Source of the DNA: an uncultured Erysipelotrichaceae bacterium
GTDB taxonomy: Bacteria > Bacillota_I > Bacilli_A > Erysipelotrichales > Erysipelotrichaceae
Direction of reading: 5' to 3'
Length of the DNA stretch: 64,000 bases
Assembly (NCBI GenBank): GCA_944326825.1
Contig: CALVFL010000014.1
Location: 1-64,000, forward strand
Position 1 is the first letter of the stretch. Each line of letters begins with the position of its first letter. Below the pieces are notes generated by a model, which saw nothing but the letters and a program-made list of their open reading frames with translations, did no database searches and had not been told where the DNA came from. The position numbers and the translations under genes were made by a program. Shown here one piece after another: positions 9,025 through 63,173 of this stretch.

Positions 9025-9736
9025 ATACAAATTCTCCCTGTTCTATTACACATTCATCATATTCATTTTCATTTATCAAACCTAATTCCAGCATATCATT
9101 CAAGACCTTGAGCTGTCTTTGATAAGTCTTGGGATTATCATTAGACAGCTGATAATTGGCTGGTGAATTAGGAATGGCCGCCAGCAAAGAGGCTTCAAAG
9201 AGATCAAGATCCTTGGGCTCTTTATTAAAGTAATTCATAGCTGCCTCATAGATACCGATATTTCCATCTCCATAATTGATGACATTGACATACATCTCTA
9301 AGATCTCATCTTTACTGTAATGATCTTCTAAATCATAGATAAAGAAATACTCGGCGATCTTTCTGGTAAGCGAAGTTTCATAGTCAAAATAAACGATCTT
9401 GGCTAATTGCTGGGTGATGGTACTGCCTCCTTCAGCTAAAGAAAAGGAAGTCAGATTGCGCATCAAAGCCCGGCCAAGAGCGATAAAGTCGATACCCTCT
9501 CTGACATAAAAACGCCGATCTTCAACCGCATAAGTAGCATTTAAAAGATCATGGCTGATATCTTCAAAATATACATAATGATCTGTCTTTTCTATCAACT
9601 GTTCTCTGATGTCTTCAACAGGCAAGACTTCCTTGGCCTCCATATAGCGTTCATAAGAAAAAAAGACAAGGACAGAACCGGCAGTCAAAACAAAACACAG
9701 CAAACAAATAAAAAATACTTTAACAAATCTCTTCAC
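9017..9736 (-). CDS. Monofunctional peptidoglycan glycosyltransferase (GT51)
   Basis: This 239-residue protein polymerises lipid II outside the membrane. It has one N-terminal membrane segment (about 5-27) and the GT51 motifs in order: EDRRFY with the catalytic Glu, GGSTITQQLAK, RKIAEYFFIYDLE and KDEILEMYVNVINYG. There is no transpeptidase domain. The start codon is GTG, and the -10 element TATAAT (9743-9748, extended by TGA) ends exactly six bases before it, with no Shine-Dalgarno site. The transcript is therefore predicted to be leaderless. It heads the operon running to the flavodiiron gene. Confidence 0.92.
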   Translation of the reverse strand: MKRFVKVFFICLLCFVLTAGSVLVFFSYERYMEAKEVLPVEDIREQLIEKTDHYVYFEDISHDLLNATYAVEDRRFYVREGIDFIALGRALMRNLTSFSLAEGGSTITQQLAKIVYFDYETSLTRKIAEYFFIYDLEDHYSKDEILEMYVNVINYGDGNIGIYEAAMNYFNKEPKDLDLFEASLLAAIPNSPANYQLSNDNPKTYQRQLKVLNDMLELGLINENEYDECVIEQGEFVYE

Positions 9737-9742
9737 GACCCC

Positions 9743-9751
9743 ATTATATCA
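9743..9751 (-). promoter_or_regulatory. Extended -10 promoter for a leaderless transcript (glycosyltransferase)
   Basis: TGATATAAT on the minus strand is followed by GGGGTC and then the GTG start. Six bases between the -10 and the start codon put +1 on the G of GTG. No good -35 is seen, which fits an extended -10 promoter. Confidence 0.6.
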
Positions 9752-9781
9752 TTAAAAACAAAAGACATGCATAAACATGTC

Positions 9782-9991
9782 TTATTGTCCCATTGATTTC
9801 ATGATAGCTTTGATCTGAGCTTCCGATGGTTTTCTGCCCATCTGCAAGAACATCGCTCTGATCATCTTTTCGTTGATCGGCGGGTTTTCCTTGATCTGCT
9901 TTTGCAGGTAATGTCTGGCAACGAAGAAGCCAATGATACCGCCAATAACAGCACCGATCACAAAATATAATAATGAAGACCAAAAATCCAT
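9782..9991 (-). CDS. yneF: YneF family (UPF0154) small membrane protein
   Basis: This protein of about 69 residues has one N-terminal transmembrane helix (MDFWSSLLYFVIGAVIGG) and a cytosolic tail ending PSEAQIKAIMKSMGQ, which matches the UPF0154/YneF family in length and layout. I chose the ATG at 9991 because AAAGGGG lies seven bases upstream; a GTG at 9997 is the alternative. The function of the family is unknown. It stands alone downstream of the structured RNA. Confidence 0.88.
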   Translation of the reverse strand: MDFWSSLLYFVIGAVIGGIIGFFVARHYLQKQIKENPPINEKMIRAMFLQMGRKPSEAQIKAIMKSMGQ

Positions 9992-10047
9992 AATCACACC
10001 CCTTTACTTTGCATTCGTATAATAATTCTACTTGATAGAGATTGATT

Positions 10048-10203
10048 TGTAAACAAGGTCTAAGGGTTGTAAAATTTCCTGGCTTCTCCCAGGTGGGTAT
10101 CCTATGCCGCTCTTTAGGATTCCTGTTAAGGCATTCTACACCAAACGGACAACACGGATTCCCGAAAACATAATGTAGGAATTTTATCGAGATTCCTTAG
10201 ACA
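10048..10203 (-). ncRNA. ssrS: Structured RNA, candidate 6S RNA
   Basis: No reading frame fits this gap. The minus-strand RNA closes on itself: GUCUAAGG near its 5' end pairs with CCUUAGAC near its 3' end, AAAAUUCCU pairs with AGGAAAUUUU inside, and CCUGG-GAGAAG-CCAGG plus AUGCC...GGCAU form internal hairpins. A TATAAT (10209-10214) lies just upstream. A rod with a closing stem and internal bulges near aspS fits 6S RNA, which in Bacillus lies beside aspS. Here the coiled-coil gene intervenes, and about 156 nt is short for 6S. The structured RNA is well supported; the 6S name is inference. Confidence 0.5.
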
Positions 10204-10208
10204 AGTTT

Positions 10209-10214
10209 ATTATA
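10209..10214 (-). promoter_or_regulatory. -10 element of the structured RNA
   Basis: TATAAT on the minus strand, seven bases before the predicted 5' end. No convincing -35 is seen. Confidence 0.5.
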
Positions 10215-10246
10215 TCAATATTTTTATTTAATAATAGTCTTGACTT

Positions 10247-13200
10247 TTATCTTTTCTTTTTAAAGTGATTAAAGAGGCCCTTTGACTCTTCTTTTTCTTT
10301 GACTTCTTGTAAATATGCACCGAATTTTAAACGAAGTTCACTGAAGGCAGTTTCGCTGTCATCGTCTAAACCGGCATCTTTTGAATCATAGCTTTCCTTT
10401 AGTCTGGCTATATCAGAACTCAAAGCAGCCAGGCGCTCATTCAGACGCTCTTTTTCTTCGCCCATCATCGCTTCAGCCTTGGCTTTTAAAGCTGCAACTT
10501 TATCTTTTTCTTTCTCATAAGCATCTTTAGCGCCATTGTCATAACTTATCAGACTGATAGCCTCGTTTATGAGATCCTCTTTGATATCGCCTTTAAAGGC
10601 AGAAAGTTTATCAGCCAGATCCTGACGTCTTAATGCCAAAGAATTCATCTTTTCTTCATGAGCGATCTTGGCTTCAGACAACTCATTTTGATACTGGGCG
10701 ATCGTTTCATTCTTAAGACTTTCATAGCTTTGCAAGAGCTCTTCTTTACTCTTATCCAGCTCTTCCTTCTTTAAAGCCAGTTCATATTCTTTAGTAGCGA
10801 CAAAGTAATCAAAATCATCTTTGACTTTACGCTTGCCGATATTATTGCGTTCAATGAACTGATCTTTTTCAGTTTTCAGATTGGCGATGACTTTATCAAG
10901 ATTGGAAACCTTAAGATCATAAGCGGCATTTAAGGCAACTTTATCCCGCTCTAAGGCATTGAATTTCTCTTCATAAGTTTCTTCGATCTTCTGATAATCA
11001 TTTTTAGCTTCATCGATCAAAGATTGAGCCTCGCTTTTCTTATTGGCTGATTCCATCAAGGCGATATTGCGGGCCTTCTCTAATTCCTTTAAAGCCATGA
11101 CCTTGGTATTGATCTCATTTTGAGCCTCAGTGATGCTTTGTCGGGCTTCTTCCTTAAAGGCGGCAATCTTATCCAGATATTCTTTTTCTAAGCGTAAATG
11201 ATCATCATCCAAAGCCTGTTTGCGCTTAAGATACTCGTCATAAAGTTCCTTGCCCTTTTCACTGTATGCTTCTTTGTCGCTTTGCAAAGCAAGAGTGAAT
11301 TCTTCTTTAAGACTTGCAAGTTCGCTGCTGCGGCTTTCAAGATCCAGACGCATCTTTTCTATTTCTTCATTTTTGAGGTTTACTTCATTTTCGTAAGCGC
11401 TCTTTTGATCATCGTACTCTATTGCAAGCTCGTTTCTGGTCTTTTCAAGATCAGCATCCAAAGCCTCTTTTTGACCCTGATATTCATTTTCTAAAGCAGC
11501 CAGCTCTTCTTCATGTTTTAAAAGCATTTCATTCTTCTTGGTTTCATGTTCTTCTTTATAAGTCAGAAGATTGGCATTCAGTTCATCTTTCAGGGCATCA
11601 AGCTCTGCTTGAGCCGCTTCTTTGGATTCATTCAAGACTTGCAATTTATCATCAAGATCCTTCTTTAAAAGATCATGATCCTGTTTTCTTTGCGTCAAAA
11701 GATCTTCTAACTCCCGTTTACGATTCTCGTTTTGAATACGCAGATCATTTTCTTCGCTAGACAGTTCAGCCATTTCCAAGTCGGCATCGGCTTCACTTCT
11801 TTGCATCTCTTCTTCAATGGTCTTCATTTGCGTCTTAAGATCGGTTATCTCATTTAAGACTCCGTCAAGATCAGCTTGTCTTTGTTTTGTGACCTCTTCA
11901 CTTTGCGTGCTGAAATCACTTTCCAAAAGAGCGACCTTGGCATTGTATTCATCATTTAAAGAACGCATCCTTTCATCATGAGCTTTGAGTTCTTCTTCAT
12001 AGGCTTCCTTTTGGGTCTTGATGTCATTTTTAAGCTCGTCGCAAGTCTTTAAAAGTTCGCCCTTTTCTTCTTCAAAGTGTCTGGCAAGCTCTTCTTTTTG
12101 GGCATCAAGGCTCAAAAGATCATCCTGATGTTTAACTTTTAGAGTTTCCAGATCTTGACTATGCTGCTTCTTTAAAACCTCAAGATCTTCATCGATCTTT
12201 AAAAGTTCTTCTTTATGAACTTTTTCAAGTTCTTCGAGGTTTTGTTTGTTGGTACTATCCAAACTGTTAAGTTCTTCTTCGTGAGCTGTTTTGAGCTCAG
12301 ACATTTTAGCAGCATGTTCATTTTGCAGATTGGCGATCGTCAGTTTATGATCTTCTTGGACTTTAGAAAGTTCTTCTAAAAGAGCAGCGATATCAGCTTT
12401 GACTGCTTCGCTTTCTTTAAGTTTTTCTTCATTTTCCGCATGTAAAAGATTCAGTTCCGTTTCAGCTTCTTTGGCTTTTTCAGTGATCTTTCTTTTGATT
12501 TCTTCAATGTCTTTGGCATACTTGCGATAGACTTTATCTTTATTCTCGCTTAAAAGGACCAGTTCATCTTTAGCATTGTCCTTTTGGCGTTCAAGCTCTT
12601 GCAGATCATTGGTAAACTGCTCTTTCAGTCTTTCTAAGCGCTCCTGATATTCAACTTCTTTTTTAAGATAGAATACTTCCCATTTATGTCTTTCATTAGT
12701 TAAACGGGTATCATAATCGCTGATGCTGATCTGATACTTGCCCGTATTGTCTAACATCTCTTTTTTGATCTCTTCCAAAGATGCCTGCAGACTCTTGATC
12801 TGTTTTTGATAGTCTTTGGCGATGTCGTCATTCTGTTTTCTGACGACTTCAAGATCACTTTGATTATTAACCTTTAAAGATTCGAGTTCTTTCGCTAAAG
12901 CAGTACTCTTTTCTTTAAGATCATTTTCTAAAGTTTCTTTCTTTGTATCCAGTTCTTTCTTGTAAGATTCCAGTTCTTCCTTTAGCGTCATTTTATAAGC
13001 GGTCAGCTTTTGATCGTAGTTATCCTTGATATGAGATAGCGTCACATCAAAATCATGCACCAGCTGATGCAGTTCTTTTTCGTTGGCGGACTGGACATTC
13101 AAAATAGACTGTCTGGCTTCATCTGCCCGGTTTCTTAGAAGATCGATCTCTTTATTGGTTTCATCTTCTTTATTGAGCAAAGTCAGCTTTTGTAAACCAA

Positions 13201-14107
13201 AAGCCTTTACTTTCTCATCATATTCCCTTAACAGTTTTTCTTTGGCACTTTGCAAACTGTTGGTCTGTTTTTTGAATTCGGCATCATAAGCCTTCTTCTT
13301 TTCTTCTAATTCGATCAGTTCTTTACGTTTGATCACCAGCAGATCATTCATCTTCTCTTCCATTTTGTGATATTCCTCGTCCCATTTATTTAGCCGCTTT
13401 GCAGCATCGCTTTTCAAAGTGTTTAAAGTTGCCTGATATTCGCTCTCCTTGGCATTGAGCCTGATCCGATAATCTTCATCGTTTTTGGCATGTTCAGCTT
13501 TGAGGGCATCTTTTTGAGCATTCAGACTGTCGATCGTTAATAAAGCCTCTTCTTTAAATTTAGCAGCTTTTATAGCGATCTTATCAAGTTCAGACAGATA
13601 AGCGACCTTTTCATCCTTGCTCAAGGTTTCATAAGCTTCATTGTGCTTGCTCATATCAGCAAGATAATTCTGCTCATAATCATCGAAATCATCCTGATAG
13701 TGTCGCTTAGAGGCATTGAACTCTTCTTCCATCTGCCCCTTATTTTTAAGATATTCAGCACTCAATTCTTCAAGATCACGCTTGTTTTTGGCATAGAGAT
13801 CACTCTTTTTAAGTTCGTGATCACTTTTGATCGTGCTTAGATCATCATTATATTTGGCAAGTGTCGCCTTGAGCTCTTCTTTGCTTTGTGCCAACTTATC
13901 AAAAAGTGCCGTTTTTTCATCATTATAGGCATTGATGTCATCTTGCATCTTGGCGATCCGCAGATCATTGTCCTCTTTAAGATCGGCTACTGATTTTTCA
14001 AGATCGGAAAGTAAGGCATCGCTTTTTTTGATATCTTCATTGATCGACGCAATGGCCCTTTCAATATCCGGGAGTGATAACTTACTTACCTTAAATTTTT
14101 CAAACAT
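10247..14107 (-). CDS. Giant coiled-coil protein (1286 aa), unknown function
   Basis: The protein is almost entirely charged heptad-like sequence rich in Glu, Lys, Asp, Leu and Ala, predicted as very long coiled coil from about residue 15 to 1270. There is no Walker A/B as in SMC or Rad50, no signal peptide and no transmembrane segment. The N-terminus (MFEKFKVSKLSLPDIE) and the basic end (GLFNHFKKKR) are the only non-repetitive parts. It may be a cytoplasmic filament or scaffold, but no function is assigned. It has its own TATAAT (near 14128) and a GAGGAAG ribosome site, and lies between aspS and the structured RNA. Confidence 0.85.
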   Translation of the reverse strand: MFEKFKVSKLSLPDIERAIASINEDIKKSDALLSDLEKSVADLKEDNDLRIAKMQDDINAYNDEKTALFDKLAQSKEELKATLAKYNDDLSTIKSDHELKKSDLYAKNKRDLEELSAEYLKNKGQMEEEFNASKRHYQDDFDDYEQNYLADMSKHNEAYETLSKDEKVAYLSELDKIAIKAAKFKEEALLTIDSLNAQKDALKAEHAKNDEDYRIRLNAKESEYQATLNTLKSDAAKRLNKWDEEYHKMEEKMNDLLVIKRKELIELEEKKKAYDAEFKKQTNSLQSAKEKLLREYDEKVKAFGLQKLTLLNKEDETNKEIDLLRNRADEARQSILNVQSANEKELHQLVHDFDVTLSHIKDNYDQKLTAYKMTLKEELESYKKELDTKKETLENDLKEKSTALAKELESLKVNNQSDLEVVRKQNDDIAKDYQKQIKSLQASLEEIKKEMLDNTGKYQISISDYDTRLTNERHKWEVFYLKKEVEYQERLERLKEQFTNDLQELERQKDNAKDELVLLSENKDKVYRKYAKDIEEIKRKITEKAKEAETELNLLHAENEEKLKESEAVKADIAALLEELSKVQEDHKLTIANLQNEHAAKMSELKTAHEEELNSLDSTNKQNLEELEKVHKEELLKIDEDLEVLKKQHSQDLETLKVKHQDDLLSLDAQKEELARHFEEEKGELLKTCDELKNDIKTQKEAYEEELKAHDERMRSLNDEYNAKVALLESDFSTQSEEVTKQRQADLDGVLNEITDLKTQMKTIEEEMQRSEADADLEMAELSSEENDLRIQNENRKRELEDLLTQRKQDHDLLKKDLDDKLQVLNESKEAAQAELDALKDELNANLLTYKEEHETKKNEMLLKHEEELAALENEYQGQKEALDADLEKTRNELAIEYDDQKSAYENEVNLKNEEIEKMRLDLESRSSELASLKEEFTLALQSDKEAYSEKGKELYDEYLKRKQALDDDHLRLEKEYLDKIAAFKEEARQSITEAQNEINTKVMALKELEKARNIALMESANKKSEAQSLIDEAKNDYQKIEETYEEKFNALERDKVALNAAYDLKVSNLDKVIANLKTEKDQFIERNNIGKRKVKDDFDYFVATKEYELALKKEELDKSKEELLQSYESLKNETIAQYQNELSEAKIAHEEKMNSLALRRQDLADKLSAFKGDIKEDLINEAISLISYDNGAKDAYEKEKDKVAALKAKAEAMMGEEKERLNERLAALSSDIARLKESYDSKDAGLDDDSETAFSELRLKFGAYLQEVKEKEESKGLFNHFKKKR

Positions 14108-14174
14108 AGCTAAGCTTCCTCACTTGTTCTATTATACTATTAAATTCAAAAAAAAGATAAATGAGTGACTAAAG

Positions 14175-17184: not shown

Positions 17185-17195
17185 AGTAATCCTTT

Positions 17196-19397: not shown

Positions 19398-19416
19398 TTC
19401 TTCCCCTTTTTTAAAG

Positions 19417-19443
19417 TTAAAATCGAAGTTTGACTCCGATTTA
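19417..19443 (-). terminator. Weak hairpin between apt and relA
   Basis: AAATCGGAG and CTTCGATTT pair with one mismatch across a five-base loop, followed by a short T/A run. It overlaps the apt stop. It may be a weak terminator or an RNA-stabilising hairpin within the operon. Confidence 0.35.
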
Positions 19444-19953: not shown

Positions 19954-19978
19954 AAATAACTCCTTCAGTACCTTTCGA

Positions 19979-28505: not shown

Positions 28506-28541
28506 ATTATAGTTTACACATTATTGTAAGTCAAATATAAT
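28506..28541. promoter_or_regulatory. Interlocked divergent promoters (yceD-rpmF and tmcAL)
   Basis: Minus-strand promoter: TTGACT 28529-28534, 17 bases, TATAAT 28506-28511. Plus-strand promoter: TTTACA 28513-28518, 17 bases, TATAAT 28536-28541. Both occupy the same 36 bases. The plus-strand start falls exactly on the tmcAL ATG, and the minus-strand start about five bases before the yceD ATG. Only one polymerase can bind at a time. Confidence 0.8.
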
Positions 28542-28547
28542 ATATTC

Positions 28548-29651
28548 ATGAATATTTGCGGAATCATCGTGGAATACAATCCCTTTCATAACGGACACCG
28601 ATACCATATCGAAAAAGCTAAAGAACTCACTTCTTGTGATGTATTGGTCGCTGTGATGTCGGGAAATTATACACAAAGAGGCGATCTTAGCGTGATGGAT
28701 AAGTTCGCTAAAACGAAAGTTGCCTTAGATAACGGCATCGACATCGTCGTAGAACTTCCCTACATCTATGCTACCCAAAGTGCCTCCTCTTTTTCTAAAG
28801 GAGCCATTGAAGCCTTAAAAGTCTTTGGGGTCGATTCGATCGTCTTTGGCTCGGAAACCAATAATCTGGAAGAATTAAAAGAGATCGCTGCTTTAGAAGT
28901 AAACCCTGATCATTTTAAAGAGATGATCAAGACCGGCATATCTTTTCCTAAAGCTTATGGCCTTTTAGCCAAAGAGTTCCTGCCCAATGATATACTGGCT
29001 ATCGCTTATCTTAAAGCTATCAGAAACACAGCTATAAGACCTTATACCATTCAAAGGACTAACGATTTTCATAGCGAAGACATCAAGAGTATCGCCAGTG
29101 CCAAAGCGATCCGCAAGGCCATAAAAGAAAAAAAGGATTATCACTTGGCTACCGATGTCAAGATCGATCATCCGGTCTTTATCGATGATCTTTATCCTTA
29201 TTTAAGAAGACTTCTGATGCTTAAAAAAAGAGAAGATCTTGAAAAGATCCACCTTGTAAGCGAAGGGATCGAAAAGATCTTCATCGATAACGCTTTTAAA
29301 TATCCTGACTTTGCAAGTTTTTTAAATGCTTCAACATCCAAACGCTATACAGCTTCCCGTATAAAAAGGACTTTATTGCAGATCATGATCGATGTCAAAA
29401 AGAGTGAAGTCGATCACTACTATCAGCCTTACGCCAGAGTCTTAGGCTTTAATGACAAAGGTCAAAAACTCATTAAGGAACTTCGCAAAAACGGCGCCCC
29501 TATTGAAACCCAGATCAAAAAGATACCGCCTTTTATAAAAGATATCGAACTCAAAGCAACGTATCTCTACGCTTCGCTGTTTGATGAAAAACGATTCCAA
29601 TACCTTGTCAAAAGAGAACTTGCAGGACCAATAATAAAAAGCTCGCAATGA
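28548..29651 (+). CDS. tmcAL: tRNA(Met) cytidine acetate ligase TmcAL
   Basis: The 367-residue nucleotidyltransferase-like enzyme (YlbM) forms acetyl-adenylate to acetylate the wobble C34 of elongator tRNA-Met. It begins GIIVEYNPFHNGHRYHI, with the HxGH nucleotidyltransferase signature, and contains MSGNYTQRGD. It is divergent from yceD-rpmF exactly as ylbM is in Bacillus. It has no ribosome site: TATAAT ends six bases before the ATG, predicting a leaderless mRNA. Confidence 0.95.
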   Translation: MNICGIIVEYNPFHNGHRYHIEKAKELTSCDVLVAVMSGNYTQRGDLSVMDKFAKTKVALDNGIDIVVELPYIYATQSASSFSKGAIEALKVFGVDSIVFGSETNNLEELKEIAALEVNPDHFKEMIKTGISFPKAYGLLAKEFLPNDILAIAYLKAIRNTAIRPYTIQRTNDFHSEDIKSIASAKAIRKAIKEKKDYHLATDVKIDHPVFIDDLYPYLRRLLMLKKREDLEKIHLVSEGIEKIFIDNAFKYPDFASFLNASTSKRYTASRIKRTLLQIMIDVKKSEVDHYYQPYARVLGFNDKGQKLIKELRKNGAPIETQIKKIPPFIKDIELKATYLYASLFDEKRFQYLVKRELAGPIIKSSQ

Positions 29652-34740: not shown

Positions 34741-34746
34741 TAAAAT
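34741..34746 (+). promoter_or_regulatory. -10 element for a leaderless transcript (TtcA-like gene)
   Basis: TAAAAT, preceded by TGA (extended -10), ends six bases before the ATG at 34753. No Shine-Dalgarno site exists between them. Confidence 0.55.
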
Positions 34747-34752: not shown

Positions 34753-35514
34753 ATGGCTAAAACGATCAAAAAACTGCTCTCTTCATTAAGAAAAGCCGAT
34801 GAAGATTATGAGCTGATAAAAGATGGCGATGTCATCGGAGTGGGATTAAGCGGCGGGAAAGATTCCAGTCTTTTGCTTTATTGTTTATATCTGTATCAAT
34901 TTTTGGCTGCCGGTACTTTTAATAAACATTTCAAGATCATCGGTATCCATATCGATCTCAATTTTGGCGAAGATGACTTTGCGGTACTTAAAAAGTGGTT
35001 TGAACCCTATGATATAACGATCTATGAAGAAAAAAGCTTCATCGCCGACATCCTGAAAAGAAATCTTAAAAATGATGCGATCCAGTGCAGTCTATGTTCA
35101 AAACTTAAAAAAGGAGCTGTCATCAAAGCTGCCAAACAGCTTGGCTGCAACAAAGTAGCTTTTGGACATCATGGCGATGATGCGATCGAAACCCTCCTTC
35201 TCAATATGATTTATGGCGGCAAGATCGCTACTTTTGATCCCAAGATGCATCTGACAAGAGAAGATATTACTTTTATCAGACCTTTTATCTACGCTTTTGA
35301 AAGTGATCTTAAAAAAGCTCTTAAAGAACTGGATCTGCCTAAGATCAAAAGCGGCTGTCCCAATGACGGCTATACGCAAAGACAGAATATCAAAGAGCTT
35401 TTGCACAAGATCTATCACACCTACCCGTCAGCCAAAGAAAACTTTTTATTAAGCCTTCACAATAAAGAACAGCTTAATCTTTTCGATCTTAAAAACAACA
35501 AATTTGATAAATAG
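34753..35514 (+). CDS. TtcA-like tRNA thiolase (PP-loop ATPase)
   Basis: The 253-residue protein has the PP-loop SGGKDSSLLLY (about 34-44), the CxxC pair CSLC and a third cysteine in SGCPND. This matches TtcA-type enzymes, which use a [4Fe-4S] cluster to thiolate C32 of tRNA. Firmicutes paralogues may act on other substrates, so the tRNA position is inference. It is divergent from the TetR operon and lies upstream of the lysine riboswitch. Confidence 0.82.
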   Translation: MAKTIKKLLSSLRKADEDYELIKDGDVIGVGLSGGKDSSLLLYCLYLYQFLAAGTFNKHFKIIGIHIDLNFGEDDFAVLKKWFEPYDITIYEEKSFIADILKRNLKNDAIQCSLCSKLKKGAVIKAAKQLGCNKVAFGHHGDDAIETLLLNMIYGGKIATFDPKMHLTREDITFIRPFIYAFESDLKKALKELDLPKIKSGCPNDGYTQRQNIKELLHKIYHTYPSAKENFLLSLHNKEQLNLFDLKNNKFDK

Positions 35515-35547: not shown

Positions 35548-35762
35548 TAAGCGAAATAAGAATTATATAGAGGTAGCGGTGCGAATGAGTACTTTAGGGA
35601 GCCGGCGGGCTTGGAACTAAAGGAAAGGTAATCATCGCCGAACATATCATTCAGGCATGAATGGTGTGTGGGGTCAAGGGAAATACTCTTGGCACTCCTA
35701 CGTCAGTAGAGGAGCTATGACATATCCTGAAAGTTCGTATGTTGTAGCATACGATTTTTATT
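35548..35762 (+). promoter_or_regulatory. Lysine riboswitch (L box) with terminator
   Basis: The leader contains L-box landmarks in order: AGAGG...GGTGCGAA, an AAAGGAAAGG segment followed by CATCGCCGAA, GGGGTCAA...TTGGCACT, and the closing GGAGCTATGA. TATAG near 35566 can pair with CTATG near 35715 as P1. The expression platform ends in the terminator hairpin CGTATG-TTGTAG-CATACG (35736-35753) and a T-rich run, just before the ribosome site of the transporter. Lysine binding should favour termination. The call rests on motif recognition by eye. Confidence 0.85.
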
Positions 35763-35781
35763 TCTCAAAAAGGAGGATATG

Positions 35782-49622: not shown

Positions 49623-49647
49623 AAAGAGTTCCTTTGCGGAACTCTTT
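49623..49647. terminator. Terminator after the small membrane protein / element C
   Basis: AAAGAGTTCC-TTTGC-GGAACTCTTT is a perfect ten-base stem with T-rich flanks on both strands, so it may end both the plus-strand gene and minus-strand element C. Confidence 0.75.
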
Positions 49648-49745: not shown

Positions 49746-49806
49746 ACGGCACAAATATCAAATAATTATGGAAAATAATGTGATTTTATTGAGGCGGAAA
49801 AAATGA

Positions 49807-49812
49807 TAGAAT
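49807..49812 (+). promoter_or_regulatory. -10 element for a leaderless transcript (metallophosphoesterase)
   Basis: TAGAAT, preceded by TGA, ends six bases before the ATG at 49819; no Shine-Dalgarno site lies between them. Confidence 0.55.
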
Positions 49813-49818
49813 AGTTCT

Positions 49819-50673
49819 ATGAAACACAAAAAAATTATTATTGCCGTTGTAGTTACCGTCGTCTTGGCGATGTGTCTTGCCTTCTACAACATGGTCTTTA
49901 TAAACCCTAAAAGAGTAACGGTTCGGGAAGAGGTTATTACCAGTGCTAAACTCCCTGAATCTTTTGATGATTTTATGATCGTCTTTTTCAGCGATCTGCA
50001 TTATACGACTTCGATCACTAAAGAAGAATTATCTGCAATAGTCGCTACCATCAATTCCTTTGATCCGGATGTGATCTTGTTTGGCGGTGATCTGGTCGAT
50101 CATTACAGCCGCAATCTCTTAGATGAAAACGAAGAAAACGAACTCACTTCCCTGCTCAAAGAGATGAAAGCCAATTATGGCAAATATGCTGTCTTAGGCA
50201 ATCATGACCTCGATTCTGAAATCATCATCGAGAATGTAAAACGTATTTTGACTAATGCTGATTTTTCAGTCTTGAGAAATTCAGCCGTCAAAGTCAGAAA
50301 CGGCGGACAAGGTTATATCAATATCGTCGGCATCGATTCTTTAATGTTGGGCGAGCCCGATGTTGAAGCTGCTTATAAAGATGTGACAAATGAAAACTAT
50401 ACAATAGCTCTTTGTCACACTCCGGATATTTTTGATACGATCCCAACTGCTAAGACCGATCTTTTACTGGCAGGACATTCCCATGGCGGACAGATCTATA
50501 TCCCCTTTATAACGAACTATTTTTTACCTGATGGAGCTCACAATTATTATCGGGGTCAATATTATAAAGATGCGGCGATGCTTGATGTGACTAACGGCGT
50601 TGGAACTACTAAAAATGACTTGCGTTTATTTGCCGATGCCGAGATCGTCGTCTATAAGTTTAAAGTAAATTAA
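49819..50673 (+). CDS. Membrane-anchored metallophosphoesterase (YkuE/YaeI-like)
   Basis: The 284-residue protein has an N-terminal membrane helix (about 5-25) and a calcineurin-like phosphoesterase domain with FSDLHY, GGDLVD, GNHD and GHSHGG, all metal and catalytic residues present. The active site should face outside. Family members hydrolyse lipid A or UDP-sugar-type substrates; the one here is unknown. The predicted leaderless start agrees with the lack of a ribosome site. Confidence 0.9.
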   Translation: MKHKKIIIAVVVTVVLAMCLAFYNMVFINPKRVTVREEVITSAKLPESFDDFMIVFFSDLHYTTSITKEELSAIVATINSFDPDVILFGGDLVDHYSRNLLDENEENELTSLLKEMKANYGKYAVLGNHDLDSEIIIENVKRILTNADFSVLRNSAVKVRNGGQGYINIVGIDSLMLGEPDVEAAYKDVTNENYTIALCHTPDIFDTIPTAKTDLLLAGHSHGGQIYIPFITNYFLPDGAHNYYRGQYYKDAAMLDVTNGVGTTKNDLRLFADAEIVVYKFKVN

Positions 50674-50698
50674 GACCACCTCTGAGGTGGTCGTTTTT
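50674..50698. terminator. Bidirectional terminator between the phosphoesterase and pepP
   Basis: GACCACCTC/GAGGTGGTC perfect stem followed by GTTTTT on the plus strand. It lies between two convergent stop codons. Confidence 0.85.
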
Positions 50699-51934: not shown

Positions 51935-51946
51935 TTATTGACCTCC

Positions 51947-55956: not shown

Positions 55957-56004
55957 ACTGTCCCTCCGTTACTACTAAATAATTCTATCACAATCTAATA
56001 ATAA

Positions 56005-56034
56005 TTGACAAAAAGAACGTCTAAATGATATATT
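56005..56034 (+). promoter_or_regulatory. rpsD promoter and long leader
   Basis: TTGACA (56005-56010), 18 bases, TATATT (56029-56034). The start near 56041 leaves a 5' leader of about 158 bases before the rpsD ATG. S4 represses its own message through a leader structure in Bacillus; I could not fold this one convincingly. Confidence 0.7.
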
Positions 56035-56198
56035 ATTTAGGCATTATATGTAACAGCATGTAAAGTTATGAATAAAGCGTTAATACCACTTGTGGCGAAA
56101 AGTAATCAGCTGTTAAGATGAAATTCTATTATTGACACTTCTCATAATGATTTACACCTAGATTGTACGTATCATGCACAAATAGGAGGAAAGAAAAA

Positions 56199-56804
56199 AT
56201 GTCAAGAAACACTGGACCGGTATGGCGTATATCCAGACGTTTGAACTTCTCTATCTTGGAAACAGGAGAAGAACTGGTAAAACGTCCATATATCCCCGGA
56301 CAACACGGCAGTCCTAACAAAAGGATCAAGCAGAGCAACTATGGTCTACAAAAGGCTGAGAAGCAAAAGATCCGTCACATGTATGGACTTAGCGAAAAAC
56401 AATTCTACAACACTTATTTAAAGGCTGCTAAGATGCATGGTGTAACTGGTACTAACTTGTTGGTATTGTTGGAATCTAGATTAGATAATCTTGTTTACCG
56501 TTTAGGTTTCGCCATCACCAGAAGACAAGCCAGACAGTTAGTCAACCATGGCCATATCTTAGTTGACGGCAAGAAGGTCGATATTCCTTCCTACCGTGTA
56601 AAACCTGGTCAAACTATTGAAGTCAAAGAAAAATCACGCAATTTAGCTTTGGTCAATGAAGCTTTAGAAGCTAATGTAGCTATTAAAGATTATGTAACTG
56701 TTGATAAAGAAAACAAAAAAGGTACTTATGTCCGTTTACCGGAAAGAAACGAATTAAATACCGAAGTCAACGAGTTGCTGGTAATCGAATACTACAACAG
56801 ATAA
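56199..56804 (+). CDS. rpsD: Ribosomal protein S4
   Basis: The 201-residue primary 16S-binding protein begins [19 protein letters not shown] and has an S4 RNA-binding domain ([20 protein letters not shown]). The ATG at 56199 follows AGGAGG; upstream in-frame codons to 56163 are leader. It is monocistronic with a strong terminator. Confidence 0.97.
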
Positions 56805-56817
56805 TGGCTGATACAAT

Positions 56818-56839
56818 AAACGCTCCCGAGGGAGCGTTT
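56818..56839. terminator. Bidirectional terminator between rpsD and the C26 gene
   Basis: AAACGCTCCC-GA-GGGAGCGTTT with a following T-rich run. Confidence 0.85.
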
Positions 56840-56863
56840 ATTTGTTTTATGGATGTTATAGAT

Positions 56864-57538
56864 TTAGAGCATGTTTATAAAATAGGTGAACAATTCTTTT
56901 TGGTACTCAAAGATCTTTTCAGGATGCCATTGGACGGCGATGATCTTCTCAGCTTCAAAAGCTTCGATCAGCCCGTCATCACTGTAAGCCGAAACCTTAA
57001 GACCTTCTCCGAGATCTTTAACAGCCTGATGGTGATAAGAATTGACCATCATCTCCTTTTTATGATAGAGATGATCTAAAAAGGAATCTTCTGCTATCTT
57101 GACACGATGACTGAGTTTGCCTTTATGGTAATTGTGCAAATGGCGTCGTTTCAGATCCTGATATTCTTTATCGATGTCCTGATACAAAGTGCCTTTAAAG
57201 GCGACATTGATGATCTGAAGGCCACGGCAGATGCCAAAGATCGGCTTATTTAATTTATGGAAAGCTTTGATAAGTTCGATCTCAAAGTTATCATATTCAT
57301 CACTTAGCCGATGACTTTTGACATCATCTTGGCTATAGAGTTTAGGATTGATGTCCTCACCGCCCGTTATCAGCAAGCCATCCATATCCTTGGCATAATC
57401 AGCGACAGACCTTAAAGAAAGACATAACATATACGGCGTTGCCCCGCTTTTGCTGATTGCCTCAATGTAAGCATGGTTAACGCCGTCTTTTTCATATTTT
57501 TTATCACAAAAACGAGGAGTTAATGCGACTTTTTTCAT
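56864..57538 (-). CDS. Class I glutamine amidotransferase-like gamma-glutamyl hydrolase (C26, PuuD-like)
   Basis: The 224-residue enzyme has the nucleophile elbow FGICRGLQIIN (catalytic Cys about 101) and the His/Glu pair in VQWHPE. The N-terminal VALTPRFCDKKYEKDG and GGEDINPKLY match the gamma-glutamyl-GABA hydrolase family. It may act on gamma-glutamyl polyamine or similar compounds; no polyamine genes are nearby. It overlaps gmk by four bases. Confidence 0.87.
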   Translation of the reverse strand: MKKVALTPRFCDKKYEKDGVNHAYIEAISKSGATPYMLCLSLRSVADYAKDMDGLLITGGEDINPKLYSQDDVKSHRLSDEYDNFEIELIKAFHKLNKPIFGICRGLQIINVAFKGTLYQDIDKEYQDLKRRHLHNYHKGKLSHRVKIAEDSFLDHLYHKKEMMVNSYHHQAVKDLGEGLKVSAYSDDGLIEAFEAEKIIAVQWHPEKIFEYQKELFTYFINML

Positions 57539-58107
57539 TGCACTGCCTTTAAAATGATCTCAGTTATCTTGCTGACTGCTTTATCGACATCATCGTTGCA
57601 GACGACATGCTGATAGCGGAAAGTTTCCCTCAACTCCTGAACAGCCTTGCGGATCCTCTTTTCTACGACCTCATCAGTTTCAGAATTACGCTTTTGGATA
57701 CGTTTTTTCAATTCTTCGATATCAGGCGGTACTAAAAAGATCGAGATGCAGCCGTCATCATACTTATATTTATTCATGACTTGTTTTGCACCGACCGTTT
57801 CAATCTCTAACAAGACATTCTTCCCCTCTTCACGCATCTTTTCAACGTATTTCTTAGGTGTTCCATAGTAGTTGTCCACAAAACAAGCATGTTCTAAAAG
57901 CTCATCATTATAGACAGCTTTCTGAAATTCTTCATTTGACACAAAGAAATAATTGACCCCGTCAACTTCCCCTTCACGTGGAGCTCTTGTCGTCATCGAA
58001 ACCGAATAGACAAGATTCAGGTCCTTATTCTCCATGAGTTTTTTAATTACTGTTCCTTTCCCTACACCGCTTGGTCCTGAGAAAACTATTAACAATCCCT
58101 TTTTCAT
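57535..58107 (-). CDS. gmk: Guanylate kinase
   Basis: The 190-residue kinase phosphorylates GMP. Walker A FSGPSGVGKGT, SMTTRAPREGEVDGVNY and NYYGTPK are characteristic. It lies opposite rqcH. No ribosome site precedes the ATG; a -10-like TAATAT (58114-58119) ends exactly six bases before it, suggesting a leaderless message, though its -35 is poor. Confidence 0.97.
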   Translation of the reverse strand: MKKGLLIVFSGPSGVGKGTVIKKLMENKDLNLVYSVSMTTRAPREGEVDGVNYFFVSNEEFQKAVYNDELLEHACFVDNYYGTPKKYVEKMREEGKNVLLEIETVGAKQVMNKYKYDDGCISIFLVPPDIEELKKRIQKRNSETDEVVEKRIRKAVQELRETFRYQHVVCNDDVDKAVSKITEIILKAVQ

Positions 58108-58113
58108 ATTTCT

Positions 58114-58119
58114 ATATTA
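58114..58119 (-). promoter_or_regulatory. Possible -10 element for leaderless gmk
   Basis: TAATAT on the minus strand followed by AGAAAT and ATG; six-base spacing as in the other leaderless candidates. No good -35. Confidence 0.4.
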
Positions 58120-58137
58120 CTACATTTTGGATTGTAA

Positions 58138-58146
58138 TGATATAAT
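58138..58146 (+). promoter_or_regulatory. Extended -10 promoter for leaderless rqcH
   Basis: TGATATAAT, then ATTTTC, then ATG at 58153, placing +1 on the A of the start codon. Shares the 45-base intergenic region with gmk. Confidence 0.6.
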
Positions 58147-58152
58147 ATTTTC

Positions 58153-59784
58153 ATGGCTTTAGACGGAATTATTTTAAGCAAAGAAAAAGAAGATCTATGC
58201 AGGAGGCTCCCGATCAGGATCAATCGTATCACGCAGGTATCGGATAACGAGCTTGTCTTTAATGTTCACGCCAATAAAGAGCGGACCAATCTGATCATTT
58301 CCTGCCACAGCGTCTATAACCGCATCCACTTAACTGACAAGGCTTATAAGGGCTACGATAACCCCAGCGGTTTTGTGATGCTTTTAAGAAAGACGATCTT
58401 AAACGGGATCATCGAAGAGATCAGGCAATACAATTATGACCGCTATCTCGATCTTTCCATCCGTTCTTTAAATGATCTTTATGATGAAGTTCACTACCAT
58501 CTCTATGTTGAACTGATGGGCAAGTATGCCAATGTTGTTTTAGTCGATGCAAACGGTAAGATCCTGGATGCCTTCAAAAGGATACCCCCTTTTGAAAACA
58601 ACAAGCGTACCATCTGGCCGGGTTCTAAATATGTATTGCCGCAAAACCAGCATAAAAAAGATCCTTTTAAAAGTGATGATTACGATGAAAATATCTCGCT
58701 TGTCAAACAGTTTCAAGGCTTCTCGCCGCTTTTAGAAAAAGAAGTGCATTACCGTTTGAATGAAGAAGATTTTAAAGGAATCATGCAAAAGATAAAGACT
58801 TCTGATAAATTATATATCGCTTTAGACAAGAAAGATTATGTCTATCACATCATTCCTTTAAAACATACTTCTTTAAATTTTAAAGCCTATGATCTGAATG
58901 AAGGCTTTGATAAACTCTACTACTCTTTAGAAGAAAAAGAGCGGATCAAACATCTGACCGACGATCTTTTCAAATACACCAAACGGCAGTTAAAACATTA
59001 CGAAGATAAAGTCGTCAAACTTAAAGAAACGCTTAAAGAGGCGGAAAACTGTGATGAGTTAAGAAACTTCGGCGATCTTTTATTCATGTATCACGATCTT
59101 GATGCCAAAGGAATGAGCGAAGTCAGCGTTGAAGATTTTGATGGCCAAGAAAAAAAGATCAGACTTGATCCTAAATATACGATCAAAGAAAACGCCAACC
59201 GTTATTATCATAACTATCATAAAAAAAGAAAATCCAAAGAACATCTTTTAGAACAGATTGCGATCGCCACTAATGAACTTGATTATTTCAGATCAGTAAA
59301 TGAACAGTTGAGCATCGCCAACTATGAAGATGCTTTAGAGATCAAAGAAGAGATGATCAGATACGGTTATTTAAAGGATAACCGCAAAAACAAAAGAAAA
59401 AACAAGACCAGCAAGTGGCATTTATATCAGATCAGTTTTAAAGATCATCTGATCACTTTCGGCAAAAATAACCTGCAGAATGATATTCTGACTTTCAAGT
59501 ACGGTAAAAGCGACTACACCTGGCTGCACGCTCAAAAACTCCATGGCGCTCATGTCTTGATCGATACGGCCAAACCTGATGAAGAAACTTTGCGTTTTGC
59601 TGCCAATATTGCAGCCTACTTTTCAAACGGCCGCTATTCTTCTTCGGTGGGCGTTGACTATTGTCTTTTAAAGGATGTTAAAAAAATAAAAGGATCTAAA
59701 GCCGGTTTTGTAGCCATTAAAAACTATAAAACGATCTTTATCGATCCTTATTTAGAAGATGATTCAATCATCATGACTATTTAG
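58153..59784 (+). CDS. rqcH: NFACT protein RqcH (Rqc2 homologue, FbpA-like)
   Basis: The 543-residue protein has an NFACT-N domain beginning with the invariant ALDGIILSKE and PSGFVMLLRKTI, a coiled-coil middle (about 255-420) and NFACT-R at the C-terminus (TSKWHLYQ...WLHAQKLHGAHVLI). It binds stalled 50S subunits with peptidyl-tRNA and adds alanine tails that mark the peptide for degradation. The same family was named fibronectin-binding protein A. No ribosome site is seen; the start is predicted leaderless. Confidence 0.95.
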   Translation: MALDGIILSKEKEDLCRRLPIRINRITQVSDNELVFNVHANKERTNLIISCHSVYNRIHLTDKAYKGYDNPSGFVMLLRKTILNGIIEEIRQYNYDRYLDLSIRSLNDLYDEVHYHLYVELMGKYANVVLVDANGKILDAFKRIPPFENNKRTIWPGSKYVLPQNQHKKDPFKSDDYDENISLVKQFQGFSPLLEKEVHYRLNEEDFKGIMQKIKTSDKLYIALDKKDYVYHIIPLKHTSLNFKAYDLNEGFDKLYYSLEEKERIKHLTDDLFKYTKRQLKHYEDKVVKLKETLKEAENCDELRNFGDLLFMYHDLDAKGMSEVSVEDFDGQEKKIRLDPKYTIKENANRYYHNYHKKRKSKEHLLEQIAIATNELDYFRSVNEQLSIANYEDALEIKEEMIRYGYLKDNRKNKRKNKTSKWHLYQISFKDHLITFGKNNLQNDILTFKYGKSDYTWLHAQKLHGAHVLIDTAKPDEETLRFAANIAAYFSNGRYSSSVGVDYCLLKDVKKIKGSKAGFVAIKNYKTIFIDPYLEDDSIIMTI

Positions 59785-60483
59785 ATATTCTCTCAGTTTT
59801 TTGATCTCATAAGGTTTTAAGAGGCGGTATTCACCGCTTTTTAAATTACCTAACTCGATATTGGCTTCCCTGATCCGATGAAGTCTTGTTACTTCATAGT
59901 CAAGTGTTTTAAACATCTTGCGGATCTGACGGTTGCGGCCTTCATAGATAGTGACTTCCATAAAGGATTTGTGTTTGGTCTGACCAAGAAGTCTGATCTC
60001 ACATTTTTGACACTTGATGTCATCGATCCAAACCCCTTCTTCAAGTTTTGCAATCTCTTCGGGCTTGATCAAGCCCTCAACAGTCACTTCATAGACCTTA
60101 GGAATATGAAAACGGGGATGGATGAGCATGTTGGTAAGCTCGCCGTCATTAGACATCAGTAAAAGTCCGCTTGAATCAAAGTCCAGACGGCCGATCGGAT
60201 AAAGACGATACTCGCAGTCAATAAGATCGGCGACTGTCTTTCTGCCACGATCATCAAAGGCGGAAGAGATGATATTTTTAGGCTTGTTTAAAAGATAGGT
60301 AACTTTATTGACGACTTTCAGCACTTCACCATCAATACTGACTTCATCGCTTTCTTCTACCTTAAAACCTAAAGTCGCAACGACCTTGCCGTTTACCTTG
60401 ACATGACCATCTAAGATCAGTTCTTCGGCTTTTCTTCGTGAACAATAGTTGCACTTTGCAATAAATTTTTGTAATCTTTCCAT
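59764..60483 (-). CDS. rluB: 23S rRNA pseudouridine synthase (RluB/RsuA family)
   Basis: The 239-residue enzyme has an N-terminal S4 domain (LQKFIAKCNYCSRRKAEELI) and the catalytic RsuA/RluB core with GRLDFDSSGLLLMSNDGEL, where the Asp is the nucleophile. It overlaps the convergent rqcH end by 21 bases and the upstream GH73 gene by 67 bases. AAAGGTGA precedes the ATG and lies inside the upstream reading frame. Confidence 0.95.
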   Translation of the reverse strand: MERLQKFIAKCNYCSRRKAEELILDGHVKVNGKVVATLGFKVEESDEVSIDGEVLKVVNKVTYLLNKPKNIISSAFDDRGRKTVADLIDCEYRLYPIGRLDFDSSGLLLMSNDGELTNMLIHPRFHIPKVYEVTVEGLIKPEEIAKLEEGVWIDDIKCQKCEIRLLGQTKHKSFMEVTIYEGRNRQIRKMFKTLDYEVTRLHRIREANIELGNLKSGEYRLLKPYEIKKLREYLNSHDD

Positions 60484-63161
60484 AATCTGTCACCTTTTCT
60501 TTTGATCAAAAGATACCCAAGCAGCATGATCTCATCTAAGATCAAAATGACGATCGGCAAAATAAGCTCGATCACAAGCTCAAAATAGAAATCATCATCG
60601 TTAGTATCGTTCAGATTCTCATAGACATTCGTAAAGTTATAGGCATTGGAAGAATCGACGGCAAAGATCATAAAATCACCGTCGGCAGAAGTTACAAACT
60701 GGACATAATCTTCCGTTTGCGAACTCTTGCACTTATAAACGTCACCGTTTTCATCCAAGCGATAGACAGTGTAGATCTTATTGGTATCAAGATCATCGAT
60801 CTTGATTGAGATCACAAAGGAAAACTGACTGGCGATCTTTTCATAATTGCGATAAAAGGAAATATTAAAGCTGTCTATTTCACTTAATTTATAGGCTTCA
60901 CCGACTTTAGACAAGGTATCTTTGTCATCTGGTGCAAGCGAAGAAACCTTTATCCGGTAGGTATCTTTGAATAGCGGTTTAGTGCTGTTCAAAGACTCGC
61001 TGAAGTCCAAAGCCAGATACATGCCGGATACATTGAGATCATAATGGTTGTCATCGATCGCCAGGCTCACTTTATCCTCGTAATAGGTTTTGGCGATCTC
61101 ATCCAAAACTCTGATGTCATCAGCTTCCAAAGGATAATCGATCGTCTTTAGTTTAGCGATGAGATCATTATAGACCGCTTCATCATAGATCGCATATTCC
61201 TGATAGTTGCTGACCAGCTCTTTGAGGTTTTCTTTGATATATTCCCGATCTTCAGCCAGATCTTTGCTGAAAAGGGTGGTGAAACTGAAGGCTATTCCGC
61301 AATATGCACCATTTATCACGCTCTCCCCTTCGGTATTTACATCATAGGCCTTTATCATATCAGTATTCATGGCGATCTCTTTGCTGGTGCCATCTTCATA
61401 GGTGACCTTAAGTTTACCGCCTTTTAAACTCAAATGCTGATGAAGTTCATTAACCTTGGATGGTTCACTGATCACTTCCACGCTGGCGATCTTTTTATAC
61501 TCTGCTTTATAGGTAGTGTCTTCTTTAGCATAAGCAATCTCTTTATCATAGCCATTAAATTCATAACCGTCTTTTTGGGGGGCGATCATCGCCGGAAGCT
61601 TGCCGTCAGCTACTTTTATAGAAATACTGGCTTCTTGGTCATAACTTCCCCCGTCAGCATCAAAAGTGATGGTATGATAGGTCTTTTCGCTGATCTTATC
61701 TTTATTAAGTATCGTCTGAAAAGTATTTTTAGCTACATAACCGACCGCATCTTCAAAATCGTAAAAATCAGCGCTGCTGTTTGATCTGTCGAATTGTACT
61801 TTATAATAATCATCGCCTTCTTGCAAGATGATCATGCTGTAAGGGGCTATATCACTGATCCTTAAAAGGACGCTGTTTAGATATTCATTGTTATAAATCG
61901 TGATCGTGTCCTGATTGCTGATGCCCAAAGCATAGGCATTATGATCTTTTAATCCCAGACTTAGATCCAGTTCATAATAATTGGCAGCGGTCTTTTCACC
62001 AAAGTAAGGATCGATGGCATATTCCACATTCATTCCGCTTTTAAAATTGCCAAAAAAACTGCCGTTATATAGTGCTGTCTTTGGATTTGAATAACGGTTA
62101 GAGATGAAGTAGCGGGCATGGGAGTAGATCGAAGAAACGACTGAAGAATAGCGCTGGGCCGACCTTTCTTCATCAGAGTCAAAAGCCAGATGTCCAAACA
62201 GATTATTGATGTCATAGGCCATGGCATTTTTGCCATAAGAACTCTCTAAGATACTTAAAGACAGCATTAAAAGAGCGTTGGCACCATAAATATTCTGATA
62301 GGCAAAGAAGTCTTCGATCGTATCAACGTATTGGGAACGGTTGACAACATCGTTGGCGAGATCGCTGTTGTTGTCTTCATAAGAATCCAAGCGGTCTTTA
62401 AAGGCATAATTATCTTCAAAATAAGTTTCTAGCTCGGTATAGTCATAACTGCTAAGACTGCGATGAGGGAGATACATATAGTAGTTATAGTATGGATCAT
62501 CGGTATTGACAGCTTTGGCATGACTGTTTTTATTCACATCATCGCTCATCTTATAGAAATCATCATAAAAATAATGACCGTCATAACTGAAATAACTGCC
62601 CTCGCTTAGATAAGACGGAGCTTTGTCTAGCTTGATGTGATAGGCATAGTAGTCAGAATTTAGCTGTGCTTTGATGTCATGATACAATTCTCCGCTATTC
62701 ACTGTGTACTCACTGATCCGTACATTCAGCAGTTCGTATGGATATAAAGTAACATCATCGATAGCGATCTTGCCGAAAGTATCCGACATCTTAAATGCCA
62801 CTTTCTCATGATCGCTTTTAGAAGCGACATACAAAGCATCAACTCCATAGCAGCCGTTAAGCTCTTTGCTGCCCTTGTCTTCATGATCGTAAGTCAGATT
62901 GAGCGTACAGGTATCATTGGTATTAAAAGCCACGATGCCATATTCCATCAGCAATACTTTATCATCCCTCTTAAGGACAAGGTTGCCATAGTTATCAAGC
63001 TGCTTTTCATAGTTGGAAGCTGCTTCTTGATAATCGCCAAAAGCTGCAACTTCTTTTAGACCGCCGGTAGTCGATTCATATAAATAGTAGCTTTTCTCTT
63101 CGGCTTTTATTTCCACGCTTCCGATCACAAGCAATAAAACGATCAATATCTTTTTAAGCAT
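60417..63161 (-). CDS. Large secreted/membrane protein with GH73-like glucosaminidase domain
   Basis: The 914-residue protein has a signal peptide (about 1-20), a surface region of unknown fold, a glucosaminidase-like domain (about 270-400; LSLSILESSYGKN with the likely catalytic Glu, then NNLFGHLAFD), an InlB-B-type repeat (about 505-575), an Ig-like region and a C-terminal transmembrane segment (about 870-895) with a basic tail. It probably cuts peptidoglycan while anchored in the membrane. It follows the EsaB/EssC-like genes after 21 bases, so it may open the wall for secretion. TAAAAT lies six bases before the ATG. Confidence 0.82.
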   Translation of the reverse strand: MLKKILIVLLLVIGSVEIKAEEKSYYLYESTTGGLKEVAAFGDYQEAASNYEKQLDNYGNLVLKRDDKVLLMEYGIVAFNTNDTCTLNLTYDHEDKGSKELNGCYGVDALYVASKSDHEKVAFKMSDTFGKIAIDDVTLYPYELLNVRISEYTVNSGELYHDIKAQLNSDYYAYHIKLDKAPSYLSEGSYFSYDGHYFYDDFYKMSDDVNKNSHAKAVNTDDPYYNYYMYLPHRSLSSYDYTELETYFEDNYAFKDRLDSYEDNNSDLANDVVNRSQYVDTIEDFFAYQNIYGANALLMLSLSILESSYGKNAMAYDINNLFGHLAFDSDEERSAQRYSSVVSSIYSHARYFISNRYSNPKTALYNGSFFGNFKSGMNVEYAIDPYFGEKTAANYYELDLSLGLKDHNAYALGISNQDTITIYNNEYLNSVLLRISDIAPYSMIILQEGDDYYKVQFDRSNSSADFYDFEDAVGYVAKNTFQTILNKDKISEKTYHTITFDADGGSYDQEASISIKVADGKLPAMIAPQKDGYEFNGYDKEIAYAKEDTTYKAEYKKIASVEVISEPSKVNELHQHLSLKGGKLKVTYEDGTSKEIAMNTDMIKAYDVNTEGESVINGAYCGIAFSFTTLFSKDLAEDREYIKENLKELVSNYQEYAIYDEAVYNDLIAKLKTIDYPLEADDIRVLDEIAKTYYEDKVSLAIDDNHYDLNVSGMYLALDFSESLNSTKPLFKDTYRIKVSSLAPDDKDTLSKVGEAYKLSEIDSFNISFYRNYEKIASQFSFVISIKIDDLDTNKIYTVYRLDENGDVYKCKSSQTEDYVQFVTSADGDFMIFAVDSSNAYNFTNVYENLNDTNDDDFYFELVIELILPIVILILDEIMLLGYLLIKRKGDRLWKDYKNLLQSATIVHEEKPKN

Positions 63162-63167
63162 ACGACT

Positions 63168-63173
63168 ATTTTA
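63168..63173 (-). promoter_or_regulatory. -10 element for a leaderless GH73 transcript
   Basis: TAAAAT on the minus strand followed by AGTCGT and ATG. The -35 is poor. It lies in the 21-base gap after the EsaB-like stop. Confidence 0.4.

Follow-up and report, generated by a model that had tools for sequence, protein, structure and literature searches.

Does a bacterium in which most genes are led by Shine-Dalgarno (SD) sites also carry genes whose transcription begins at the start codon itself? The question is raised by a window of 64,000 nucleotides (contig CALVFL010000014.1, positions 1 to 64,000) from an uncultured Erysipelotrichaceae bacterium, whose source assembly, GCA_944326825.1, is a draft of 48 contigs totaling 1.38 Mb, with 83% completeness. 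In seven genes of the window (rqcH, gmk, tmcAL, a TtcA-like gene, a phosphoesterase gene, a GH73-type gene, and a glycosyltransferase gene), a first-pass annotation had noted a TATAAT-like hexamer ending exactly six bases before the start codon, a spacing called N6 here, and had proposed a leaderless class. Our analysis indicates that these genes very probably do form such a class, in which a sigma -10 box at N6 would put the transcription start (+1) on the start codon. The promoters would be those of the housekeeping sigma factor, with the -10 box at positions -12 to -7 relative to the start codon. RNA polymerase would begin at the first base of that codon and give an mRNA without a leader, and ribosomes would initiate on its 5′-terminal AUG without SD pairing, as on other leaderless mRNAs. 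Leaderless initiation is described as using 70S ribosomes with initiator tRNA and as depending on the IF2/IF3 ratio (PMC6431027, PMC10783764).

All seven hexamers stand at N6 (Table 1). Six differ from TATAAT at no more than one position, and the gmk box differs at two; the extended TGA precedes four of the seven (rqcH, TtcA-like gene, phosphoesterase, and GT51 gene). No SD string of at least 4 bases lies upstream of any of the seven, but one is present before 34 of the 42 other open reading frames (ORFs) picked in the window; one of these 42 is spurious, lying within the 23S gene, and the choice of starts favored SD sites. The tail of the 16S rRNA, GGATCACCTCCTTTCT, is intact. On the spacing, the four extended boxes, the lack of SD sites, and the 16S tail, the first-pass annotation had read the sequence correctly; the names rqcH, tmcAL, and GH73 are also its own. 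The glycosyltransferase is presumably of GT51 type, and its gene is called the GT51 gene here. The sequence TTTACA can be read 17 bases upstream of the tmcAL -10 box.

Table 1. Predicted leaderless genes of the window, their -10 hexamers, and the 16S rRNA gene
Feature	Coordinates	Strand	Remarks
rqcH -10, TATAAT, extended TGA	58141..58146	+	Same place in 8/8 genus members and G010
rqcH, ATG, predicted leaderless	58153..59784	+	NCBIfam best match EfbA, E 7e-104, below cut-off
gmk -10, TAATAT	58114..58119	-	In 45-bp divergent gap common to rqcH promoter
gmk, guanylate kinase, predicted leaderless	57535..58107	-	TIGR03263 above cut-off
tmcAL -10, TATAAT	28536..28541	+	N6 in 9/9 genus members and G010
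tmcAL, nucleotidyltransferase, predicted leaderless	28548..29651	+	NF010192 above cut-off
TtcA-like gene -10, TAAAAT, extended TGA	34741..34746	+	
TtcA-like tRNA thiolation protein, predicted leaderless	34753..35514	+	E 4e-51, below curated cut-off
Phosphoesterase -10, TAGAAT, extended TGA	49807..49812	+	
YaeI/LpxG-like metallophosphoesterase, predicted leaderless	49819..50673	+	Below curated cut-offs
GH73-type protein -10, TAAAAT	63168..63173	-	
Peptidoglycan hydrolase-like protein (GH73), predicted leaderless	60417..63161	-	Weak match NF052335
GT51 gene -10, TATAAT, extended TGA, before GTG start	9743..9748	-	
Monofunctional peptidoglycan glycosyltransferase, GTG, predicted leaderless	9017..9736	-	TIGR02070 below cut-off
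16S rRNA with intact anti-Shine-Dalgarno tail	2688..4228	-	

Spacing was counted in the window and 20 further stretches of the same genome (416 kb, approximately 30% of the genome; 361 ORFs of at least 100 amino acids); three of the stretches were chosen because they hold known hits. TATAAT-like hexamers were defined by fixed T1, A2, and T6 and at most one mismatch, and were scored before in-frame ATGs lying within the initial 15% of an ORF (n = 731). The counts at N3 to N9 were 6, 4, 2, 31, 7, 4, and 4, so that in this sample the six-base spacing exceeds five and seven, the comparison that the first-pass annotation had proposed. A backwards-read control pattern was dropped as too weak a null, and spacing profiles and shuffles were used instead. 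Dinucleotide shuffles (n = 200) gave 5.8 ± 2.3 hits at N6, with a maximum of 13, versus the 31 observed. Without the window and the three hit-chosen stretches (260 ORFs), 14 hexamers remained at N6, 2 at N5, and 3 at N7. Chance would account for about 6 of the hits among 361 ORFs (31 seen) and about 4 among 260 (14 seen), the latter being the mean of the other spacings, N0 to N19. Exact TATAAT was found 18 times at N6, 0 at N5, and 5 at N7, and at N6 of 2/2078 internal ATGs.

None of the 31 N6 starts has an SD match of at least 5 bases, and two have one of 4 bases; TG lies one base ahead of the box in 10/31. A second, broad rise of boxes at about N20 to N27, together with SD sites, represents ordinary leadered genes. 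SD-led genes are the majority in this genome, and the predicted leaderless share is roughly 4 to 7% of ORFs. GTG starts alone gave no clear peak, with 5 boxes at N6 and also 5 each at N0, N16, and N25, and TTG starts in this sample had no box at N6.

The base directly before the start codon (-1) is C or T in 29/31 N6 starts, versus 49% of all counted ATGs, and in 14/14 of those outside the window and hit-chosen stretches. Most bacterial transcription starts have a pyrimidine at -1. A YR motif with this pyrimidine has been described at transcription starts in several gut species (PMC4782308). The -1 base is not transcribed if transcription starts on the A, so translation cannot explain the pyrimidine. 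As evidence it does not depend on the box, and it would place +1 at the same position, the A of the ATG.

The first-pass annotation had also suggested looking for the six-base spacing in related genomes, and N6 is kept in the genus for rqcH (8/8), tmcAL (9/9), and gmk (9/9), counts that include the source genome. TATAAT-N6-ATG precedes rqcH in each of the eight genus members whose start can be read, as well as in G010 of a sister genus (9/9 together), and the spacer letters between box and ATG vary among the members keeping N6; G004 (without the N-terminus) and G012 (no match) were left out. For tmcAL, N6 is found in the nine genus members and G010 (10/10), and three further genomes of the family (G009, G021, and G024) share it. 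With two mismatches allowed, gmk has N6 and C or T at -1 in all nine genus members and N6 in 0/6 rows outside the genus, and the phosphoesterase has N6 in 7/9 and N7 in 2/9 genus members and N6 in 0/3 rows examined outside it. The GH73 gene has N6 in 7/8 and N7 in 1/8 genus members with an N-terminus (that of G001 is partial), some starts being shifted by one or two codons relative to the alignment. Among genes outside the window, holA has TATAAT-N6-RTG in 9/9 genus members (L339, L342 to L348, L350), and N6 is kept by a Nudix gene (G008) and an L016 gene (G010). Rows were left out as remote or paralogous for TtcA (G013, G015 to G017), the phosphoesterase (G015 to G017), GH73 (outside the genus), and GT51 (G001, G006, G013 to G017). 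The GT51 orthologue match runs across one TGA in L298 (G008) and in L299 (G003).

Outside its clade, rqcH has the N6 box in 0/19 rows from other genera and families, which mostly have a TATAAT-like box about 18 to 30 bases upstream and a purine-rich SD site. In the 35 of 80 named loci displayed, the N6 box of rqcH is found only in RGIG2514 and RUG14174. The 11 leaderless rows form one clade in a tree of 43 RqcH proteins, with support of 100/100 and one change. Within that branch, the distance from box to ATG is about 12 to 20 bases shorter than in most outgroups, and the SD site is gone. On this tree, the predicted leaderless layout of rqcH arose once, in a branch of Erysipelotrichaceae. The best named RqcH matches listed are metagenome-assembled genomes (MAGs) of Erysipelotrichaceae at 53% identity or less, though nearer records may be left out. 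The 45-bp divergent gap between gmk and rqcH (58107 to 58153) holds both -10 boxes, and the -35 region of each gene would overlap the -10 box of the other.

To follow the class beyond this genome, 16 genomes were sampled and stretches of 15 other genomes counted, most of them picked for known genes. The recount in relatives excluded every TGATATAAT-N6 start, a pattern that had guided the choice of some stretches, and all homologues of the seven predicted leaderless genes of the window. Together, G010 and the five other members of the genus gave 18 boxes at N6, 3 at N5, and 9 at N7 (582 ATGs), with C or T at -1 in 18/18 N6 starts; G010 was the clearest (8, 1, and 2). The count in named genomes took in 76 of the 80 named loci. 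The 13 named loci from Erysipelotrichaceae MAGs, two of them of the rqcH clade, gave 12 at N6, 1 at N5, and 3 at N7, with a pyrimidine in 8/12, and 58 loci of other Firmicutes, nearly all around rqcH, gave no clear N6 peak. TGATATAAT was tallied in those named genomes that were listed in full. The positive control, Lactococcus cremoris, whose genus has predicted leaderless genes, had 18 at N6 and 12 at N7 versus 3 each at N4, N5, and N8 (tallied by eye), and 1/9 pattern hits in Streptococcus sanguinis and 5/15 in S. suis were at N6.

Of the other readings, the closest is that the boxes are true -10 elements with transcription starting one to three bases off, which would give leaders of 1 to 3 nucleotides. 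Such leaders would suit the orthologues at N7 to N8 (four TtcA, two phosphoesterases, and one GH73), the purine at -1 of holA described below, and the counts at N7 (7 in the own-genome sample and 9 in that of relatives). The peak is nevertheless at N6, and the -1 pyrimidine in 29/31 and 18/18 starts places +1 on the A, so that we consider short leaders unlikely; in the usage of PMC4448216, transcripts with fewer than 5 leader nucleotides would in any case count as leaderless. Chance, by which TANNNT would turn up at every spacing in AT-rich upstream sequence and the six-base cases were then picked out, has scarcely any probability left: the hits observed at N6 are well beyond the shuffle maximum, and the spacing is kept in genus members though the spacer letters differ. 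Chance is refuted for the class as a whole, genes without orthologue support excepted. Since about 5.8 hits are expected by chance among 731 ATGs, a few of the 31 probably arose in this way.

It is equally hard to credit that the start codons are misplaced and that true SD-led starts lie downstream, giving the boxes normal leaders. All leaderless RqcH orthologues and most of the others start with M-A-x-D-G, the first two residues of GMK are MK in 9/9 genus members and 4/6 others, and SD-led outgroups begin at the matching codon. AT-rich signals near -10 have been discussed in other phyla as S1-type translation enhancers (PMC5397173), and the hexamers here could be such signals on longer leaders rather than promoters. 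An enhancer would require neither the exact N6 spacing nor the pyrimidine at -1, and most rqcH outgroups have an upstream TATAAT-like box and a separate SD site; we regard this explanation as extremely improbable.

The leaderless reading thus stands as proposed in the first-pass annotation, strengthened by the N6 peak, the -1 pyrimidine, the lack of SD sites, and the N6 spacing in relatives, with 5′ ends that are predicted from sequence. Several results weigh against it or limit its reach. At least 4 matches to TTGACA at a spacing of 16 to 18 were found in 6/31 N6 starts and at 18.5% of control offsets, which is no enrichment. TtcA has N6 in 4/9 genus members (one shifted by two codons), N7 to N8 in 4/9, and CTG instead of ATG at N6 in 1/9. 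The GT51 gene has N6 in just 2/7 genus members examined, with the box absent in 5/7, and N6 also in G009. The orthologue counts sort the window genes into five retained throughout the genus, one whose spacing varies by one or two bases, and one that is recent or local. Of four gene-genome pairs from outside this set, two keep N6; ybeY lacks the box in the 2/2 relatives in which the gene was found (G002, G008). The base at -1 of holA is a purine in 9/9 genus members, unlike the rest of the class, so its +1 is uncertain and transcription may start one base off. The recount gave more boxes at N7 (4) than at N6 (1) in G006, and nine genomes of other genera and families gave 18 at N6, 6 at N5, and 11 at N7 (1492 ATGs), with C or T at -1 in 12/18; these nine, in which the N6 signal extends outside the clade, would have at most a weak leaderless class. 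TGATATAAT-N6-ATG is present in 19/21 relatives' genomes and is not confined to the genus; whole-genome counts are 5 here and 10 in G018, which belongs to another family and in which a single repeated string accounts for 5 of the 10. Streptococci gave no clear N6 peak, with 4 at N6 in 236 kb. As streptococcal leaderless genes are proven, the spacing test evidently misses some.

The first-pass annotation went too far in regarding a leaderless class as undescribed in low-GC Firmicutes, as three reports contradict this (PMC3160421, PMC6431027, PMC4448216). Leaderless genes were predicted by Zheng et al. (2011) in 56 of 209 Firmicutes genomes, among them the Lactococcus-Streptococcus and Oenococcus-Leuconostoc groups and Mycoplasma (PMC3160421). 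In S. pyogenes, 67 leaderless mRNAs (8.6%) were mapped, with 9% cited for S. agalactiae and S. pneumoniae (PMC6431027); differential RNA sequencing (dRNA-seq) of S. agalactiae gave 78 (8%) (PMC4448216). Enterococci are reported to have less than 1% (PMC7724050).

The streptococci resemble the present case as low-GC Firmicutes with an extended -10 box and a minority class beside leadered genes. As reported for them, 90% of the leaderless mRNAs of S. agalactiae start at the A of AUG and 54 are common to species. They differ in belonging to another order, in an SD-led rqcH in the 5 of 11 streptococcal loci displayed, and in that the leaderless mRNAs described in S. agalactiae all begin with AUG, whereas some GTG starts carry the box here. 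The Firmicutes predictions of Zheng et al. likewise have TAtAAT at a fixed distance, preceded by TG in several low-GC genomes, but the string "Erysipel-" is absent from the main text of that paper. Actinobacteria and Deinococcus-Thermus also have a -10 box adjoining the ORF and a mixture with SD genes, but with a larger share (19% and 39% on average, Table 2 of PMC3160421) and a looser TANNNT box. Among the matches listed in the open literature, judged largely by title, we found no leaderless report for Erysipelotrichaceae, the rumen, or Erysipelothrix, although such species may be among the 5,007 genomes listed for GeneMarkS-2. The window genes most likely represent a known kind of gene class in a family new to it, and rqcH shows a clean evolutionary switch. 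They would extend leaderless genes to a gut and rumen Firmicutes family for which no report was found. For rqcH they offer a before-and-after case, leaderless inside one clade and with a leader and SD site outside it, and the tree gives this change a single origin. Leaderless starts may be misplaced by gene-finding programs guided by SD sites.

The holA gene offers a second comparison, as it is leaderless by dRNA-seq in S. agalactiae (PMC4448216) and has the N6 layout throughout the present genus. TACAAT-N6-ATG precedes holA in S. hyovaginalis, and the other four streptococci lack it. Among the 27 named genomes displayed, the box is found only in S. hyovaginalis, RGIG2514 (N6), and RUG14174 (N7); Holdemanella was masked, Staphylococcus simulans gave no match, and a second, weak Vagococcus match was left out. 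With the box in only 3 of 27 named genomes, a deep ancestry of leaderless holA is rejected as far as tested. The layout, found here and in S. hyovaginalis and lacking in most other named genomes, probably arose at least twice.

Gene content was examined in 31 genes with a box at N6, C or T at -1, and an ATG or GTG start. NCBIfam matches above cut-off include miaB, ybeY, rsmG, argS, arcA, ung, uvrB, rapZ, and a D-aminoacyl-tRNA deacylase. Judged by name, these may point to genes of RNA modification, DNA repair, and nucleotide metabolism. In one branch of Erysipelotrichaceae, a housekeeping set (RqcH, tRNA and rRNA modification enzymes, and DNA repair and replication genes such as ung, uvrB, and holA) might have exchanged SD-led for leaderless initiation and kept a leader of zero length ever since, as a translational regulon responding to the initiation machinery (IF2/IF3 ratio, 70S initiation), with pyogenic streptococci doing so independently for at least holA. 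We offer this as a tentative and rather doubtful idea; shared regulation, if true, could reveal what leaderless initiation is selected for.

In the same set, 18/31 genes are divergent to their upstream neighbor, versus 80/361 of all ORFs, an excess partly expected because genes with their own promoter are more often divergent. Among 22 divergent pairs within 150 bp, a box at N6 to N8 with up to one mismatch was found on both sides in 5, on one side in 9, and on neither in 8. Four of the five double-box pairs are in L020, a stretch picked because it held a hit, and in one of them the two ORFs overlap; the gmk-rqcH pair is one-sided at one mismatch and double at two. Short divergent gaps recur in L020, between genes for an AAA ATPase and a D-aminoacyl-tRNA deacylase (49 bp) and between ung and folC (35 bp). 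L013:13022-15439 (-) encodes a predicted leaderless GTPase of 805 amino acids that resembles tetracycline ribosomal-protection proteins (290.8 bits versus a cut-off of 775 bits).

Two further features of the window were observed. No second copy of a block like ATGTAAAATAATGTGATTT, located at 49768 to 49786 upstream of the phosphoesterase promoter, was found in the 416 kb sampled; the block recurs at a similar distance in 8/9 genus members, two with changes. A lysine riboswitch (RF00168, 69.9 bits) lies at 35560 to 35725 (+), ahead of the ORF at 35779.

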